Of a stretch of 64,000 bases of DNA, positions 4,979 to 17,212 are shown in pieces. The notes under the pieces were generated by a model that ran no database searches, had not been told where the DNA came from, and saw only the letters and a list, made by a program, of their open reading frames with translations. Made by a program: the position numbers and the translations under genes. Source of the DNA: Paracoccaceae bacterium (GTDB taxonomy: Bacteria; Pseudomonadota; Alphaproteobacteria; Rhodobacterales; Rhodobacteraceae); assembly GCA_022843025.1 (NCBI GenBank), contig JALHOL010000007.1:248001-312000 (forward strand), read 5' to 3'. Positions within the stretch are counted from its first letter, which is position 1. Each line of letters opens with the position of its first letter.

Positions 4979-5010
4979 CAGGCGCCATGATCCCTGACCC
5001 GGAGCCTGCC

Positions 5011-6555
5011 ATGACCTCCCTTCCCCTCACCTCTCTCTCCCCGCTCATCTTGCTTGCGGCCGTTCTGCCCTTCCTCGCCCGTCCCGGCCGCCGCCCCGGC
5101 CACCTGCCCGCACTGGCCGAGGCCGCAACCCTTGCCGCTCTCGCACTGTCCCTTGCCGGTCTGGCGCAGCTCTGGGCCAGCGGCGCGCAGGTCCTTGCCT
5201 TGGGCGATACCGCCCTCCTGCGGCTCGACGCCATCAGCGTCACCATGGCGCTCCTTGTGTCCTTTGTCGGCTGGATCGTGGTCCGCTACGCCCGCCGCTA
5301 TCTGGATGGCGAGGCGCGCGAAGGCCGCTTTCACGGCCTCACGCTGGCCGCCATCTCCGCCGTCCTCGTGCTCGTCACCGCGGCCAGCCTGCCGGTTCTG
5401 GTGGCAAGCTTCATCGCCACCGGGCTGGTCCTGCGGCAACTCCTGCTCTTCTACCCCGACCGGGCCGAGGCGCAGCGCGCCGCCGCCAAATTCATCCGCG
5501 TCTGGGGCGCGGGTGACCTTGCCCTCATACTCGCCTCAATTCTGCTGTGGCACAGCTTCGGCACGCTCAACATCGCCGCACTCATCCAGATGGGCAGCCT
5601 TCCCGCCGCCGCGCAGCTCGCCGCAGCCCTTCTCGTCCTTGCCGCCGCGCTGAAAACCGCCGCCTTCCCCCTCCACGGCTGGCTGACCGAGGTGATGGAG
5701 GCCCCCACCCCCGTCTCTGCCCTGCTCCACGCAGGTATCATCAACTCCGGCGGCGTATTGCTAATCACCCTCGCCGGGCTCGTACAGCACAGCCCCGGCG
5801 CCATGGCGGCGCTGGTGATCATTGGCGGCTTCACCGCGCTGTTTGGCGGCCTGGTCATGCTCACACAAAGCGCGGTGAAAACGGCGCTGGCATGGTCCAC
5901 CGTGGCGCAGATGGGCTTCATGCTGCTGCAATGCGGGCTTGGCCTCTGGGCGCTGGCGCTGCTGCACATCGTGGCGCATTCGCTCTACAAGGCACATGCC
6001 TTCCTGTCCTCGGGCGGCGCGGTGCAGGCGGTAAACGCCATTCGCAAACCGGGGCCGGTCGCCGTGCCGGGACTGGCCGCCGTTGCACGCTCTTTCGCGC
6101 TGGCACTGGTGCTCTATGGGGTCGTGGCCACGGGCTTCACACTGCTGGTCGGGGATAAGTCACCGCAGGCTCTGGCGCTCGGGGCCATGCTGATCTTCGG
6201 CGTGTCCTACCTCATCGCGCAAGGTCTGGCCGATGCCGCCCCCGCCGCCCTGACGCAGCGCACCATGGCGGCGTCTGTCGCCACGGCACTGGCCTATTTC
6301 GGCTTTCAGGTCGTGGCGCAAACCATCTGGGGCGCGTCACTGCCCGCCACCCCCGTCGCCGGGGCACTGGAATGGGCTTTGATCGTGCTGGCGATCCTGA
6401 CCTTCGGTCTCGTGGCCTTTGCGCAGGCGCTGTTCCCGCTCTGGGCGCATCACCCCGCCACCGCCGGGCTGCGGGTGCATCTGGCCAACGGTCTATACCT
6501 CAACGCCCTGCTGGATCGCCTGATCGGCGGCTTCCGCACGGCCCCCAAATCCTGA
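5011..6555 (+). CDS. dabB: DabB, proton-channel-like subunit of DAB inorganic-carbon accumulation system
   Basis: Polytopic inner-membrane protein of the NuoL/MrpA antiporter-subunit family (514 aa), partner of DabA. The family core is visible: ALKTAAFPLHGWLTEVMEAPTPVSALLHAG (about residues 215-245, split by position here), then SAVKTALAWSTVAQMGFM and LHIVAHSLYKAHAFLSSG. DabB is thought to use the proton motive force to drive DabA. The start at 5011 has GGAG 6 bases upstream; an in-frame ATG at 4987 lacks a good site. The immediate downstream gene is dabA, and no other Nuo subunits are adjacent, which argues against complex I. Confidence 0.9.
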   Translation: MTSLPLTSLSPLILLAAVLPFLARPGRRPGHLPALAEAATLAALALSLAGLAQLWASGAQVLALGDTALLRLDAISVTMALLVSFVGWIVVRYARRYLDGEAREGRFHGLTLAAISAVLVLVTAASLPVLVASFIATGLVLRQLLLFYPDRAEAQRAAAKFIRVWGAGDLALILASILLWHSFGTLNIAALIQMGSLPAAAQLAAALLVLAAALKTAAFPLHGWLTEVMEAPTPVSALLHAGIINSGGVLLITLAGLVQHSPGAMAALVIIGGFTALFGGLVMLTQSAVKTALAWSTVAQMGFMLLQCGLGLWALALLHIVAHSLYKAHAFLSSGGAVQAVNAIRKPGPVAVPGLAAVARSFALALVLYGVVATGFTLLVGDKSPQALALGAMLIFGVSYLIAQGLADAAPAALTQRTMAASVATALAYFGFQVVAQTIWGASLPATPVAGALEWALIVLAILTFGLVAFAQALFPLWAHHPATAGLRVHLANGLYLNALLDRLIGGFRTAPKS

Positions 6556-6601: not shown

Positions 6602-8983
6602 ATGTTCCTCAAACATACCGCGATTGCCCCCTCCCTCGCCTCGCAGTTTCTCACGGCGGCAGAATCCGCCGCCCGCGCCATCCCCCCGGCTTTTCCGCTG
6701 GATGCCACCGTGGCGGTCAACCCCTTCCTCGGCCAGACCCACAGCGATCTCGCCACCGCATCTGCGCGGCTGGCGCGGGTGTCAGGCGCGCCCCTGACGC
6801 TGCCCCGGGCCGCCCTCGCCGCGCGGGTCACCGCGGGGGAGATCACCGATGACGATCTGGCCGCCGCACTGATCGCCTCCCCTTCGCCGGTCAAGCCGCG
6901 CGATCTGGCATGGCTCAAGGCCCGGATGCACCTGCCCGCCCCCCCACAGGATGCCCTGCCCACCGTCGCCGATCTGGCCGCCCGCGCCACTGGCACCGAT
7001 TGGCCCGCCATCCTCGCCCGCAGCTTCGGCCTCTGGGCGGCAGGCTATTTCGATCGCGGTCAGGCGCTCTGGACGCCGCGCTCGGGCCAAGGCGCCTTTG
7101 CCGCATGGCGGGAATGGGCCACCCATGACCTCACCCCCGAAATCGCAGGCCTGACAGGCTTCAGCGCCTTCGTGGCAGAGGCCCCCGACACCGCCGAACG
7201 CGCCGTCCTGCGCGCTGCCGAACGGCTGGGCCTCACCCTTCCCGCCGCTGAAACCGCCTTCCACCGTTTGCTCGTCGATCTGGGCGGCTGGCCGCAGCAC
7301 GCGCGCTGGCTCTTGTGGCAGGCCGAGTTGAAAGGCGGCACCGACGCCACGCTGACCGATCTTCTGGCCATCCGCCTTCTCTGGGATGAGGCGCTGCTCG
7401 CCCATGCCCCCATCGTGGCCGCCGACTGGACCGCCACCGTCGCCGCCCATGCGGCCGAGGTTGCCGCCACCCCCGATCAGGCCGTCGATGCCATCCTGCA
7501 AGACGCCGCCGAACGCGCGCATCAGCGCAAGCTGGCCGCGCTCCTGTCGGGGCCGGTCCTGCAAACAGGTCGCCCCGCCCTGCAAGCCGCTCTCTGCATC
7601 GACGTCCGGTCCGAAGTTCTGCGCCGCGCGCTGGAATCGCTCGATGGCGGCATCGAAACCCTCGGCTTCGCCGGGTTCTTCGGCCTGCCCGTCGCCCACC
7701 GCCCGCAAGGCACGGATGAGGTGCAGGCCCATCTGCCCGCCCTTCTGAACCCCGCCCTCACCTCCACCAGCCACCCCGGCGCGGCCAGCGAATCCGCCAC
7801 CCGCATCACCGCGCGGGCAAAACGTGCCTGGGGCCGGTTCCGGCAGGCCGCTGTCTCCTCCTTCGCCTTTGTCGAAGCCGCCGGTCCGCTCTACGGCGGC
7901 AAGCTTGTCCGCGATGCGCTGGGTCTGGGGGCAGACGGGCTCACCCCCGGCCCCCTGCCGCAGATCGAAGGTGGCCTGACCGCCGATCAAAAGGCGCAAA
8001 CCGCCGCCGCCGTCCTGCGCGCCATGAGCCTGACCACAGGCCATGCCCGGCTTGTCCTGCTCATCGGCCACGGCGCGCAACTGACCAACAACCCGCATGA
8101 AAGCGCCTACCACTGCGGTGCCTGCTGCGGCCAGACGGGCGAGGTGTCGGCCCGGCTTTTGGCCTGCCTCCTCAACGATCCCGAAACCCGCGCTGGCCTA
8201 CCCGCGCTGGGGCTGACCCTGCCCGCCGACACGCTTTTCGTGGCAGGCCTGCATGATACGGTGACGGACAAGGTCACGCTCTACCGCGACACCCCCGCCC
8301 CCGACCACAGCACAGATCTGGCGCAGGCCGAAAGCTGGCTCGCCACTGCGGGCCACCTCGCCCGCGCTGAACGCGCCCTGCGGCTGCCCGGTGCCACGGC
8401 GCAGAGCATCGCCAAACGCGCCGCTGACTGGGCCGAGCTGCGCCCCGAATGGGGCCTTGCCGGTTGCGCCGCCTTCATCGCCGCCCCCCGCAGCGCCACC
8501 ACCGGGCGCGATCTGGGCGGTCGCGCCTTCCTGCACAGCTATGACTGGACCACCGATCAGGGCTTCGCCACGCTGGAACTGATCCTCACCGCCCCGGTGG
8601 TTGTGGCCAGCTGGATCAGCCTGCAATATTATGGCTCCACCGTCGCGCCGCAGGTCTTTGGCGGCGGCAACAAGCTGATCCACAATGTCGTGGGCGGCAT
8701 CGGCGTGGTCGAAGGCAATGGCGGCCTCCTCCGCCCCGGCCTGCCTTTCCAGACCATCCATGATGGCAACGCCCCCGCCCATGACGCGCTGCGCCTGTCG
8801 GTGATGGTCGAAGCCCCCGCCGACGCCATCACCGCCATCCTGCGCAAGCATGACAGCCTGCGTCAGCTGTTCGATAACGGCTGGCTCCACCTCTTTGCCC
8901 TCACCGACGGGCAGATCACCGCCCGCTACCGCCCGGGGCTGGACTGGGAACCCCAGGGTCCGACGGCCAGCCTCGCCGCCTGA
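6602..8983 (+). CDS. dabA: DabA, zinc-dependent subunit of DAB inorganic-carbon system (DUF2309/UPF0753)
   Basis: Large 793-aa DUF2309 protein with a beta-carbonic-anhydrase-like zinc site. In characterised DabA the ligands are Cys, Asp, His, Cys; here they match C332 and D334 (CIDVRSE), H490 (IGHGAQLTNNP) and C505 (YHCGACCGQ), with the same 15-residue His-Cys spacing as the Halothiobacillus protein. It would hydrate CO2 to bicarbonate on the cytoplasmic side, driven through DabB. It begins 46 bases after dabB, so the two form an operon. The conserved N-terminal FPLDATVAVNPFLGQ segment is intact. Full length. Confidence 0.93.
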   Translation: MFLKHTAIAPSLASQFLTAAESAARAIPPAFPLDATVAVNPFLGQTHSDLATASARLARVSGAPLTLPRAALAARVTAGEITDDDLAAALIASPSPVKPRDLAWLKARMHLPAPPQDALPTVADLAARATGTDWPAILARSFGLWAAGYFDRGQALWTPRSGQGAFAAWREWATHDLTPEIAGLTGFSAFVAEAPDTAERAVLRAAERLGLTLPAAETAFHRLLVDLGGWPQHARWLLWQAELKGGTDATLTDLLAIRLLWDEALLAHAPIVAADWTATVAAHAAEVAATPDQAVDAILQDAAERAHQRKLAALLSGPVLQTGRPALQAALCIDVRSEVLRRALESLDGGIETLGFAGFFGLPVAHRPQGTDEVQAHLPALLNPALTSTSHPGAASESATRITARAKRAWGRFRQAAVSSFAFVEAAGPLYGGKLVRDALGLGADGLTPGPLPQIEGGLTADQKAQTAAAVLRAMSLTTGHARLVLLIGHGAQLTNNPHESAYHCGACCGQTGEVSARLLACLLNDPETRAGLPALGLTLPADTLFVAGLHDTVTDKVTLYRDTPAPDHSTDLAQAESWLATAGHLARAERALRLPGATAQSIAKRAADWAELRPEWGLAGCAAFIAAPRSATTGRDLGGRAFLHSYDWTTDQGFATLELILTAPVVVASWISLQYYGSTVAPQVFGGGNKLIHNVVGGIGVVEGNGGLLRPGLPFQTIHDGNAPAHDALRLSVMVEAPADAITAILRKHDSLRQLFDNGWLHLFALTDGQITARYRPGLDWEPQGPTASLAA

Positions 8984-9012
8984 CCCGCCATTTCCCTTCC
9001 CTGCAGCAGCAA

Positions 9013-9031
9013 GCGGCGCCCCCCGCGCCGC
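9013..9031 (+). terminator. GC-rich hairpin downstream of dabA
   Basis: GCGGCGC-CCCCC-GCGCCGC, a 7-bp perfect stem about 30 bases after the dabA stop. No T-run follows, so it may be a pause or RNA-stability structure rather than an intrinsic terminator. Confidence 0.4.
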
Positions 9032-9076
9032 CTGCAACCCACCGCCAAAAGAACCAACGCGATGGCATAAAATCGC

Positions 9077-9104
9077 TTGAACGGTTGGCCTGCCTCGGTA
9101 TGCT
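9077..9104 (+). promoter_or_regulatory. Candidate sigma-70-like promoter for the SCHIC-BLUF operon
   Basis: TTGAAC, 16-base spacer, TATGCT, about 23 bases before the start codon of the SCHIC protein; GGGGAGA ribosome-binding site follows at 9114-9120. Separates this operon from dabA. No TGT-N12-ACA (PpsR-type) site was seen in the spacer. Confidence 0.35.
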
Positions 9105-9126
9105 CAACCTCTAGGGGAGAATTGCG

Positions 9127-9948
9127 ATGGCACGACGGCAAGCGTCACTCGACCCCGAGGTATTCACGCGCACCGCGTCGCTCTTTGCGGCGAAACGCGG
9201 TGCCTTCGCCCCAGATGCAGTGGGCGCGCTGGCCACGGATATCGTGCGCCGACTGGCAGATTTCCGGTCTCAGGACCCCCTCTTCGATGCCCCCGTCATC
9301 GCCGAAGACAGCATCGCCGCCTTTTGCGACGCGCTGGTCAAACCCGGCTCCGACGCCTCGCTCCGCTTCATTCAGGATCGCCGCGACGAAGGCGTCACGC
9401 GCCAGGCCGTCTATCTTGGCTACATCACCGGGGCCGCGCGCCATCTTGGCCAAGGCTGGGAAGAAGACCGCTTCTCCTTCCTTCAGGTCACCATTGGCAC
9501 CGGCCACCTTTACGCCCTGATGCGCGCCCTGCGCGCCGAAGGGTCGGCCCAGCGTGTCCGGTTCGACATCCGCCGCTCTGCCCTTTTCGCCACCGTCCCC
9601 GGCGAAGACCACGGCATCGGGATCACCGTCGCCGCCGACATCTTCCGTGACGCGGGATGGGAGATCGACCTTCAAACCGCCACCAACCATGACGCACTCA
9701 TGGCCCATGTGGAACGCACCCATCCCCTGATCATCGGCCTCTCGCTCAGCACCGAACAGCGGCTTGATGCGCTGGTGCGGCTCGTCGTGGCCATGCGCCT
9801 TGTGGTGCCCGAGGCGATCATCGGCGTGGCCCCCTCCGCCACGGTCGACGCCAAACGCCTGCGCACCCTTGCCGATATCGACCTTATCTTCACCGATGCC
9901 CCCTCGGCCTACCGCGAACTGGATCGCCTCATCCGCCTGCGGGACTGA
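9127..9948 (+). CDS. Cobalamin/heme-binding SCHIC-like sensor protein (PpaA/AerR/AppA C-terminal type)
   Basis: A 273-aa protein whose C-terminal half is a B12-binding-like Rossmann domain as in PpaA, AerR and the SCHIC domain of AppA. The ligand motif GEDHGIG places a histidine at residue 162, where AerR/PpaA proteins use His for cobalamin or heme. The N-terminal about 135 residues form a helical region (RFIQDRRDEGVTRQAVYLGYITGAARHLGQGW) as in the B12-binding photoreceptor family. In AppA this domain is fused to BLUF; here a BLUF gene follows 62 bases later on the same strand. Likely role: soluble redox or light signal transducer acting on a PpsR/CrtJ-type or other repressor. Family call good, target inferred. 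Confidence 0.82.
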   Translation: MARRQASLDPEVFTRTASLFAAKRGAFAPDAVGALATDIVRRLADFRSQDPLFDAPVIAEDSIAAFCDALVKPGSDASLRFIQDRRDEGVTRQAVYLGYITGAARHLGQGWEEDRFSFLQVTIGTGHLYALMRALRAEGSAQRVRFDIRRSALFATVPGEDHGIGITVAADIFRDAGWEIDLQTATNHDALMAHVERTHPLIIGLSLSTEQRLDALVRLVVAMRLVVPEAIIGVAPSATVDAKRLRTLADIDLIFTDAPSAYRELDRLIRLRD

Positions 9949-10010
9949 TCCATCCTTCCCGACGCACGACCCTTCGCGCCGACCCCACCCTTTTCAAAAG
10001 AGGCGACACC

Positions 10011-10424
10011 ATGACCCTGTTCCGGGCCATCTACAGCTCGCGCCCCTTCGGCTTTGACGCCGGGGTTCTGCACGGCATCCTCGACCAGGCCCGCCGCCTG
10101 AACCAGCGCGACGGCATCACCGGCGCGCTGATCTGCCGGGCCGACATCTATCTTCAATGGCTCGAAGGCCCCGAAGAAAAGGTCCGCAACACGCTGGGCC
10201 GCATCGCCCGCGACGACCGCCACCTTGAGGTAAAGCTGCACGTGTCGGAACCGGCGCAGGACCGCCTCTTCGCCGATTGGGCCATGCTGCACGATCCCGC
10301 CGCCAGCTGGATATGGACACAGGCCGAGGTGGCCGATGACGCCATCGACCGCGCCAGCCCCGAAGTGGTCACCGACTTCTTCTTCCATCTGCGCGGTTCA
10401 GCAGACGCCCGTACCTCCGATTAA
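10011..10424 (+). CDS. BLUF-domain blue-light photoreceptor (stand-alone)
   Basis: A 137-aa flavin-based blue-light sensor. The BLUF residues that form the photoactive FAD site are all present: Y8 (AIYSS), N31 (LNQRDGITGAL), Q49 in YLQWLEG, W90 and M92 in FADWAML. These correspond to Y21, N45, Q63, W104 and M106 of AppA. The domain fills the first about 95 residues; the remaining about 40 are a short tail, so there is no output domain in the same chain. It follows a SCHIC-type gene, which suggests the two proteins together do what AppA does in one. Convergent with the FGGY kinase gene. Confidence 0.92.
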   Translation: MTLFRAIYSSRPFGFDAGVLHGILDQARRLNQRDGITGALICRADIYLQWLEGPEEKVRNTLGRIARDDRHLEVKLHVSEPAQDRLFADWAMLHDPAASWIWTQAEVADDAIDRASPEVVTDFFFHLRGSADARTSD

Positions 10425-16408: not shown

Positions 16409-17212
16409 ATGCCATCCGAATACGACGACCAGAACCTTGCCAGGACTCTGACAGAACAAAGTTCTGGCAAGAAACGCCACGGCGACTCGCGCGGTCACGT
16501 CACCTCGCTGGCGGCCGAGGTTCTGCAACGCGTGGCCCGCCGCGCCGCCGAACTGCGCGAAGCCCGCGAGTTGGAGGCCGTCAAATCCGCCGCCCTTGTC
16601 CTGACCTCCGGGTCCGAGGCCGACGCCTTTTCCGCGCTCGAAGCACTGGACGATCCGCTGCGCGAGCTTGACTGGTTCCTGTCCGAACGTCTCGGCCCCA
16701 TCGCCCGCGAAATCGGCGCGCTGTGGAACGCTGGCACCGTCACCTATCAGGCCGCCACCACCGGGGCATCGCGCATCTATTCCTTCCTGCGCTACCGCCG
16801 CCGCCCCGCCGCCATGCCCGATCATGGCCTGCGCAAATCGGCCACCTTCGCCCTCGTGCCGGGCGATATGCACACCCTTGCCATCTCTGCTGCCGCCGAT
16901 GTCTTCCGTGCCCGCGGCTGGGACATCACGCTTCTCATCGGCTACACCAACGAAGAGCTTTGCGAACATTTCAAAGGCTCCACCGACCGCATCTTCGGCT
17001 TTGCCGCAGGCTCCTCGCAATCGCTGGAACAGCTTGGACGCCTCGTCGTCTCCGTCACCGACGCCCGCCCCGAAGCCTCGGTCTTCGTCGCAGGCCAGAT
17101 CACCGATGATCCCTCCACCGTGCTGGTCCTGCCGGGGATCGACTTCCGCGATGTCGAACTCGAGGCCACCTGCAACTGGTTCGAGGCGCACACGCCCCCC
17201 ACCTCCACCTGA
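16409..17212 (+). CDS. Cobalamin-binding SCHIC-like regulator (PpaA/AerR-like), second copy
   Basis: A 267-aa protein with a C-terminal B12-binding-like domain (about 140-265). The ligand histidine falls in GDMHTLA (H155), followed by AADVFRARGWDITLLIGYT, as in PpaA/AerR. The N-terminal region is charged, then helical (LREARELEAVKSAALVLTSG). It shares family with the protein at 9127 but has a longer polar N-terminus and a different ligand-loop context. PpaA/AerR proteins antagonise PpsR/CrtJ in Rhodobacter. The PpsR-like box in its promoter suggests a feedback loop. No ppsR gene is in the window. Confidence 0.82.
   Translation: MPSEYDDQNLARTLTEQSSGKKRHGDSRGHVTSLAAEVLQRVARRAAELREARELEAVKSAALVLTSGSEADAFSALEALDDPLRELDWFLSERLGPIAREIGALWNAGTVTYQAATTGASRIYSFLRYRRRPAAMPDHGLRKSATFALVPGDMHTLAISAAADVFRARGWDITLLIGYTNEELCEHFKGSTDRIFGFAAGSSQSLEQLGRLVVSVTDARPEASVFVAGQITDDPSTVLVLPGIDFRDVELEATCNWFEAHTPPTST

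Follow-up and report, generated by a model that had tools for sequence, protein, structure and literature searches.

The locus studied here raises the question of whether two adjacent genes, one for an AerR/SCHIC-type protein and one for a stand-alone BLUF protein, are a split form of AppA, as was first proposed, or a module of another origin. In the window, i.e. the whole 64,000-nucleotide stretch of DNA that was analysed, SCHIC1, an AerR/PpaA-type B12-domain protein of 273 residues assigned by ORF analysis, Pfam and sequence and fold searches, is encoded at 9127..9948 on the + strand. The gene of a short BLUF blue-light sensor of 137 residues (10011..10424, +; Pfam, alignment, tree and fold search) follows it on the same strand after a gap of 62 nt (9949..10010, +, from the ORF coordinates), and both ORFs were confirmed where the original prediction had placed them. 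It was also right to put dabBA directly upstream: dabB (4987..6555, +) and dabA (6602..8983, +) were identified by ORF and Pfam analysis (814.5 bits for DabA, 125.3 bits for the proton-antiporter domain), and the dabA stop lies 143 nt before SCHIC1 (gap 8984..9126, +, from the ORF coordinates). Both dab genes are judged to be neighbours lying outside the module.

No PpsR-type TGT-N12-ACA site was found in the dabA-SCHIC1 gap (8984-9126) or in the stretch 9930-10030. The dabA-SCHIC1 gap contains no sigma-70-like match (9 of 12) and no + strand terminator-like site, and neither kind of site was found in the SCHIC1-BLUF gap. Since the gaps are free of such sites, co-transcription of SCHIC1 with the BLUF gene is plausible, and a dabA-SCHIC1-BLUF transcript is likewise a plausible prediction from these scans. 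The single operon proposed at the outset is not a conserved arrangement: the SCHIC and BLUF genes are tail-to-tail in G348 and G313, and dabBA lies near the pair in the window, in a genome of the same species (G404) and at a locus of the same genus (L012) only. The carbon-uptake role suggested for the pair is not supported and was rejected, the dab adjacency being local. Light-dependent control of dabBA, and of inorganic-carbon uptake, by the pair is very improbable: the pair is co-directional with dabA and the dabBA-SCHIC1-BLUF order recurs in L012 and G404, but of the SCHIC or BLUF loci surveyed, 83 in number, one had DabA/DabB homologues (L012; several loci end at contig borders), and a LysR-type gene divergent from dabB is, from what is generally known of LysR regulators, the likelier regulator. 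From the surveyed loci, the dabBA neighbourhood is better explained by shared descent than by function.

The product of the ORF 10011-10424 scores 86.9 bits against the BLUF model (cut-off 25), and its residues Y8, N31, Q49, W90 and M92 are invariant in 31 aligned clade members, in agreement with the predicted stand-alone BLUF protein with a complete set of photocycle residues. With the photocycle Tyr, Asn, Gln, Trp and Met and a short C-terminal tail, it is by sequence of the short PixD/BlrB type, and the fold search matched Slr1694/PixD and TePixD. FAD binding and a red-shifted photocycle would be expected of a protein of this type.

SCHIC1 consists of a helical N-terminal part followed by a B12-type Rossmann domain with the motif G-E-D-H162-G-I-G. 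Its score against the Pfam B12-binding model (36.8 bits, cut-off 32.1) confirms the predicted SCHIC-type protein with His162 in GEDHGIG, and its score against AppA_SCHIC (PF21966; 16.5 bits) is under the curated cut-off of 28.6. By sequence, the nearest solved structures are AerR 7te2 (E 1.9e-9) and then AppA 4heh (9.6e-5); the fold search with the SCHIC1 model also placed AerR 7te2 first (E 1.3e-10). The SCHIC1 and BLUF models have a pLDDT of only 61.3 and of 54.6, respectively, were built from 3 and 2 alignment rows and serve as fold support only. SCHIC1 matches no listed HTH family, and the CarH model gives 21.6 bits against a cut-off of 400.

The relationship of each protein to AppA was analysed in trees. 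In the SCHIC tree, made of 80 B12-domain proteins and including 58 of the 71 genomes with the SCHIC family, ten AerR/PpaA-group rows form one group (SH-aLRT 99), two of the ten having been checked as lying beside ppsR (own genome and G240). SCHIC1 falls outside this group, in a set of 65 rows (88) and, inside it, in a clade of 12 rows (100). Five AppA-like SCHIC domains stand apart from the other rows (92), on long branches flagged by the tree program. Among 68 BLUF proteins, the window BLUF belongs to a clade of 31 rows (100/100) made of the window, L012 and 29 of 43 other genomes; this clade has a long stem and lies away from the confirmed AppA BLUFs, in a tree whose bootstrap is not fully settled. 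Seven long-frame BLUF proteins entered the BLUF tree labelled AppA-like, and five of them carry this label in the SCHIC tree as well. The AppA_SCHIC cut-off was passed by L094, L096 and L097 and failed by L095 and L098-L100. The BLUF proteins of L095:2845-4080 and L100:2878-4059 have a C-terminal half weakly like the SCHIC domain of AppA or AerR (AppA_SCHIC model: no match in L095, 24.4 bits and under the cut-off in L100), and they are possible divergent AppA-like fusions.

The pocket of SCHIC1 was compared by alignment with the AerR residues His145, Trp94, Phe101 and Gly220, taken with those of AppA from the structural work of PMC9144470. His162 (9610..9612, +) is the equivalent of AerR His145, the lower axial cobalamin ligand, and this histidine of the ExHxxG motif is found in 65/65 SCHIC-family rows and in 10/10 AerR-group rows. 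The segment from W111 to F118 (9457..9480, +) matches the Trp94/Phe101 cap over cobalamin described for AerR (PMC9144470), F118 being the Phe101 equivalent; the cap tryptophan is shared by 10/10 AerR-group rows and by 64 of 65 family rows, the last one having a gap, and is found in 0/3 confirmed AppA rows. At each of the H145, W94 and F101 columns SCHIC1 matches AerR, and the three confirmed AppAs, to which the AppA residue counts are limited, all differ. The heme-type SCHIC pocket that the original prediction had left open was disfavoured, by sequence comparison only, since the AppA letters are missing at the cap and axial columns and the AerR W94, F101 and H145 equivalents are present. At the Gly220 column, where AerR contacts the cobalamin base, SCHIC1 has Pro236 (9832..9834, +). 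Proline occupies this column in 11 of the 12 rows of the SCHIC1 subclade (the other has T), and glycine is found in the remaining 53/53 SCHIC-family rows and in 9/10 AerR-group rows; as far as the aligned rows tell, the exchange is specific to the SCHIC1 subclade, and it may weaken cobalamin binding. Because the AerR pocket residues are kept but Gly220 is lost, corrinoid binding by SCHIC1 is predicted to be likely but not certain.

The PpsR/CrtJ contact is made through the fourth helix of the helical cap in AppA and, by modelling, in AerR (PMC9144470). Within the SCHIC1 subclade the sequence of this helix (VT..+G.LYAL.RA) is strongly conserved, as judged on 10 of the 12 rows, with the truncated G381 and partial G006 sequences omitted. 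Two of the three residues proposed for the CrtJ contact of AerR differ in SCHIC1 (S109 to G and Q112 to Y), and T105 is kept.

The source genome, that of a photosynthetic bacterium resembling Rhodobacter (3.9 Mb, 99.99% complete), carries two Photo_RC (pufLM-type) reaction-centre genes and its own PpsR (TIGR02040, 533.9 bits, cut-off 275.4), whose gene adjoins that of a 267-residue AerR/PpaA-type protein. These two genes are on contig C3 and SCHIC1 is on contig C7, i.e. not beside ppsR. Since the genome has its own ppsR-linked AerR-type gene, SCHIC1 is an additional AerR-type protein and not the usual one. A full-length AppA elsewhere in the genome, which would do the job of the pair, was searched for with profiles and none was found: there is one BLUF match, of 137 residues, and no AppA_SCHIC match over the cut-off. 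As a positive control, the same models recovered fused AppA, complete in its three domains, in three relatives (L094, L096 and L097). The window also contains a second AerR/SCHIC-type gene (16409-17212, +; 267 residues, motif PGDMHTLA) 6.5 kb downstream of SCHIC1. Its product scores 31.8 bits against the B12-binding model, just under the cut-off of 32.1, is 29% identical to SCHIC1 and has a relative about 63% identical in G104, of the same genus.

A true split AppA, arisen by fission of an AppA-like BLUF-SCHIC gene, is hardly credible: the same two domain types adjoin and no AppA was found in the genome, but SCHIC1 lies outside the AppA-like as well as the AerR group, the BLUF clade is remote from the AppA BLUFs, the AppA pocket letters are not common to SCHIC1, and the gene order, SCHIC then BLUF, is the reverse of that in AppA. 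Fission is disfavoured by both trees and by the pocket residues, with the long AppA branches as a caveat. What stands of the "split AppA" is a complete BLUF gene adjoining an AerR/SCHIC-type gene in a genome where no AppA was found; descent of the two halves from AppA is not supported.

The link of both genes to phototrophy was analysed in 394 genomes of the taxonomic family (393 genera, drawn evenly from a larger group), a phototroph being a genome with a reaction-centre match over the cut-off (G323, whose match is under it, was counted as a non-phototroph). Phototrophs make up 166 of the 394 genomes. SCHIC matches were listed down to about E 7e-12; at E<=1e-25, the SCHIC family, with a few members nearer to SCHIC2 among them, is carried by 71 genomes, and 69 of the 71 are phototrophs (Fisher p 5e-28, genomes treated as independent). 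The BLUF clade (E<=1e-30) is carried by 42 genomes, including 39 phototrophs (p 4e-13, genomes treated as independent); these are 42 of 44 matching genomes from a complete listing, the weak matches of the non-phototrophs G282 and G354 being placed in neither BLUF set. Among the BLUF matches listed, genomes having other BLUFs only are not enriched in phototrophs (42/93, p 0.29). The photosynthesis link suggested by the original prediction is strong. In G240 (PpsR confirmed with 385.7 bits), G370 and G123, a SCHIC-family gene of one SCHIC subclade is tail-to-tail with ppsR and an AerR-type gene occupies the other side of ppsR, so that two AerR-superfamily genes flank one ppsR in three genomes (L086, L227 and L236). 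No BLUF-clade gene was found beside ppsR in the 41 loci surveyed.

Only two carriers of the SCHIC family, G006 and G151, are non-phototrophs. The SCHIC1 relative of G006 (L020 / L079) matches residues 7-240 only, has a weak coding score and is accompanied by an extra fragment in a different frame; it is perhaps decaying after loss of phototrophy. The SCHIC gene of G151 has no such signs of decay.

The SCHIC and BLUF genes are adjacent in 4 of the 22 surveyed genomes that have both families, namely the window genome (G000), G381, G348 and G313, and L012 is a fifth case. They are in tandem in the window, L012 and G381 and tail-to-tail in the other two. In G313, the SCHIC partner comes from a subclade other than that of SCHIC1 and the BLUF protein is among the closest to the window BLUF, suggesting repeated pairing or an old linkage with rearrangement. 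The naive random-placement probability of at least 4/22 adjacent pairs is about 3e-9. This value, framed after seeing the data, treats the genomes as independent and as 4 Mb long, each with a single SCHIC gene placed at random. Two looser associations were found in G281, where an AerR-like gene lies 2.2 kb from the BLUF gene, and in G235, where a SCHIC relative of 261 residues with a confirmed B12 domain lies about 6.0 kb from it. An open frame near the G235 BLUF gene was wrongly assigned to bchE; the gene prediction has this 261-residue protein at that place.

Among phototrophs, 22 have both families, 47 SCHIC only, 17 BLUF only and 80 neither; co-occurrence is weak (p = 0.025, genomes treated as independent), and there is no association of the SCHIC family with any BLUF (p = 0.64, among the BLUF matches listed). 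Within the genus, of which 19 genomes were covered, G394 and G400 encode relatives of SCHIC1 (54 and 51% identity, respectively) and lack this BLUF. Five of the nine BLUFs of the closest subclade are beside a SCHIC gene and four are not. Moreover, 35 of the 41 BLUF-clade loci have no SCHIC- or AerR-type match in the stretch examined, and several of them share other stable contexts. An obligate pair was rejected on the weak co-occurrence and on the genus members with a SCHIC1 relative alone; since, in addition, most BLUF loci show no nearby SCHIC gene, the partnership is optional and lineage-specific.

Two side observations were made at these loci. The SCHIC1 orthologue beside the BLUF gene in G381 (L083:5812-6441) lacks residues 40-126 in frame, which removes the greater part of the helical cap and spares the Rossmann domain; it may be a natural cap-less form, a product of decay or an assembly fault. 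A Crp/Fnr-type gene adjoins SCHIC1 in two genomes, G118 and G400, and in G233 such a gene lies at 1.2 kb from the BLUF gene (L082:5882-6610, L213:5024-5773, L137:7635-8363). The best NCBIfam matches of the G233 copy, the sole one compared, are FnrL and FixK, both under the cut-off. As Crp/Fnr genes are common, this recurrence was not counted as evidence.

The adjacency could be an accident of neighbourhood, two often-moving genes being close in a few lineages and having no joint function. We consider this improbable: it agrees with the many BLUF loci that have no nearby SCHIC/AerR-type gene and with the 18 of 22 genomes having both families in which the listed genes are not adjacent, but the chance value above, even if naive, and the existence of both tandem and tail-to-tail forms with two SCHIC subclades argue against it.

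The reading that we prefer, and that we advance tentatively, is that SCHIC1 would be a further AerR-type protein co-regulating PpsR, paired at this locus with a short BLUF protein of the phototroph-linked clade, the two giving an AppA-like function in trans. It starts from the gene content, phylogeny, pocket residues, phototrophy link and recurrent adjacency, as observed. Encoded away from ppsR, SCHIC1 would tune the photosynthesis repressor PpsR; its helical cap and Rossmann domain would enclose a corrinoid or a related tetrapyrrole, and the protein would dock on PpsR via its fourth helix, as seen for AppA and proposed for AerR. This co-regulator role is suggested because AppA and AerR use this helix and because it is conserved in the SCHIC1 subclade. 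The BLUF protein would most likely pass blue-light status to SCHIC1, or to a SCHIC1-PpsR complex, by a light-dependent contact; separate flavin sensors have precedents in PmSB-LOV and LdaP, which is why BLUF is taken as the blue-light input. The outcome would be an AppA-like integration of light and of a tetrapyrrole or redox cue by two proteins joined independently and not by fission of AppA. Beyond the observations, we infer the identity of the ligand, the PpsR contact, the BLUF-SCHIC1 contact and the sign of the output. The two exchanged CrtJ-contact residues, the weak co-occurrence and the Gly220 to Pro exchange were counted against this reading. An extended form, in which the phototroph-linked short BLUF clade of phototrophic Rhodobacteraceae would have been recruited more than once by AerR-type PpsR co-regulators, the Gly to Pro exchange retuning the corrinoid pocket and light sensing passing from cobalamin to flavin, is on the unlikely side; if true, it could explain blue-light control in phototrophs without AppA.

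In our analysis, direct contact of BLUF with SCHIC1 is the favoured route and direct action of BLUF on PpsR its main rival. According to the latter, the BLUF protein would act alone, in the manner of LdaP, on PpsR or on another photosynthesis regulator; SCHIC1 would be a separate B12-type PpsR co-regulator, and the locus would be common to one regulon with no mutual binding of the two proteins. This possibility is doubtful but has to be taken seriously. It fits the 17 phototrophs with the BLUF clade and no SCHIC-family match and the 47 with the reverse. In the model published for Dinoroseobacter shibae, PpsR is the target of LdaP as well as of PpaA (PMC10890935), and Spring et al. (2009), who noted a BLUF gene near ppsR in Congregibacter litoralis, speculated on an interaction between a single-domain BLUF protein and PpsR (PMC2654016). 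Against it are the immediate SCHIC adjacency, which recurs in different arrangements and with two SCHIC subclades, and the 0/41 BLUF-clade loci with the BLUF gene beside ppsR. The published precedents bear on the choice. PmSB-LOV binds the adjacently encoded class II LitR in the light only, via the HTH part (PMC9758184), and in the D. shibae data given in the text of PMC10890935, LdaP has an interaction signal with PpsR and none with PpaA. Because both place the contact off the B12-type domain, our preferred reading of a BLUF-SCHIC1 contact is made less sure and direct action on PpsR gains.

Blue-light sensing in phototrophs without AppA is a long-standing question, raised in Spring et al. 2009 (PMC2654016), and BLUF genes upstream of photosynthesis clusters are described in the NOR5/OM60 clade (PMC3176799). 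In the literature searched, which was mostly outside subscription journals, we found no description of adjacent stand-alone BLUF and AerR-type genes, and none of a phototroph-linked short-BLUF clade or of a phototroph-linked extra AerR-type family with a pocket change confined to one subclade. Defined here, within one bacterial family, are a BLUF clade almost confined to phototrophs and a widespread additional phototroph-linked AerR-type family.

Several known systems resemble the pair in part. SCHIC1 differs from CarH/LitR by having no N-terminal MerR-type HTH fused to its B12 domain. In E. coli BluF/BluR (YcgF/YcgE), a BLUF protein likewise acts on a separate partner, of the MerR type. BluF carries an EAL domain in addition, BluR contains an HTH, and the system does not serve photosynthesis. 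The adjacent genes of PmSB-LOV and of the class II LitR PmlR2 in Pseudomonas mendocina code for a short flavin photoreceptor, as in the pair, and for an effector of the LitR/CarH family; the sensor is however a LOV and not a BLUF protein, and PmlR2 binds DNA via its HTH, the LOV-contacted part being absent from SCHIC1 (PMC9758184). LdaP and PpaA of D. shibae offer a separate blue-light sensor and a B12-dependent antirepressor for one repressor, PpsR, whereas LdaP is a LOV sensor which contacts PpsR directly and whose gene is, by locus tag, far from the photosynthesis cluster (PMC10890935). With AerR/PpaA (Rhodobacter capsulatus AerR, 7te2), SCHIC1 shares the B12-domain architecture, the His145, Trp94 and Phe101 equivalents and the top sequence and fold match; as members of the AerR/PpaA family do, it would bind cobalamin and PpsR/CrtJ. 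It is unlike AerR/PpaA in its location away from ppsR, its separate clade, its proline at the Gly220 position and its two changed CrtJ-contact residues out of three.

Both protein types are already known, and AppA (Cereibacter/Rhodobacter sphaeroides), which serves photosynthesis control, joins them in one chain. The pair has the same BLUF and SCHIC/B12-type folds, but it is encoded by two genes in the order SCHIC-BLUF, neither half falls in the AppA groups, the pocket letters are AerR-like, and there is no AppA-type Cys-rich tail, the sequence having a single Cys. Being genetically simple, the window pair is suited to asking whether the two inputs of AppA can function when housed in separate proteins; in that case, the AppA-type fusion would be one of several wirings of the same fold pair.
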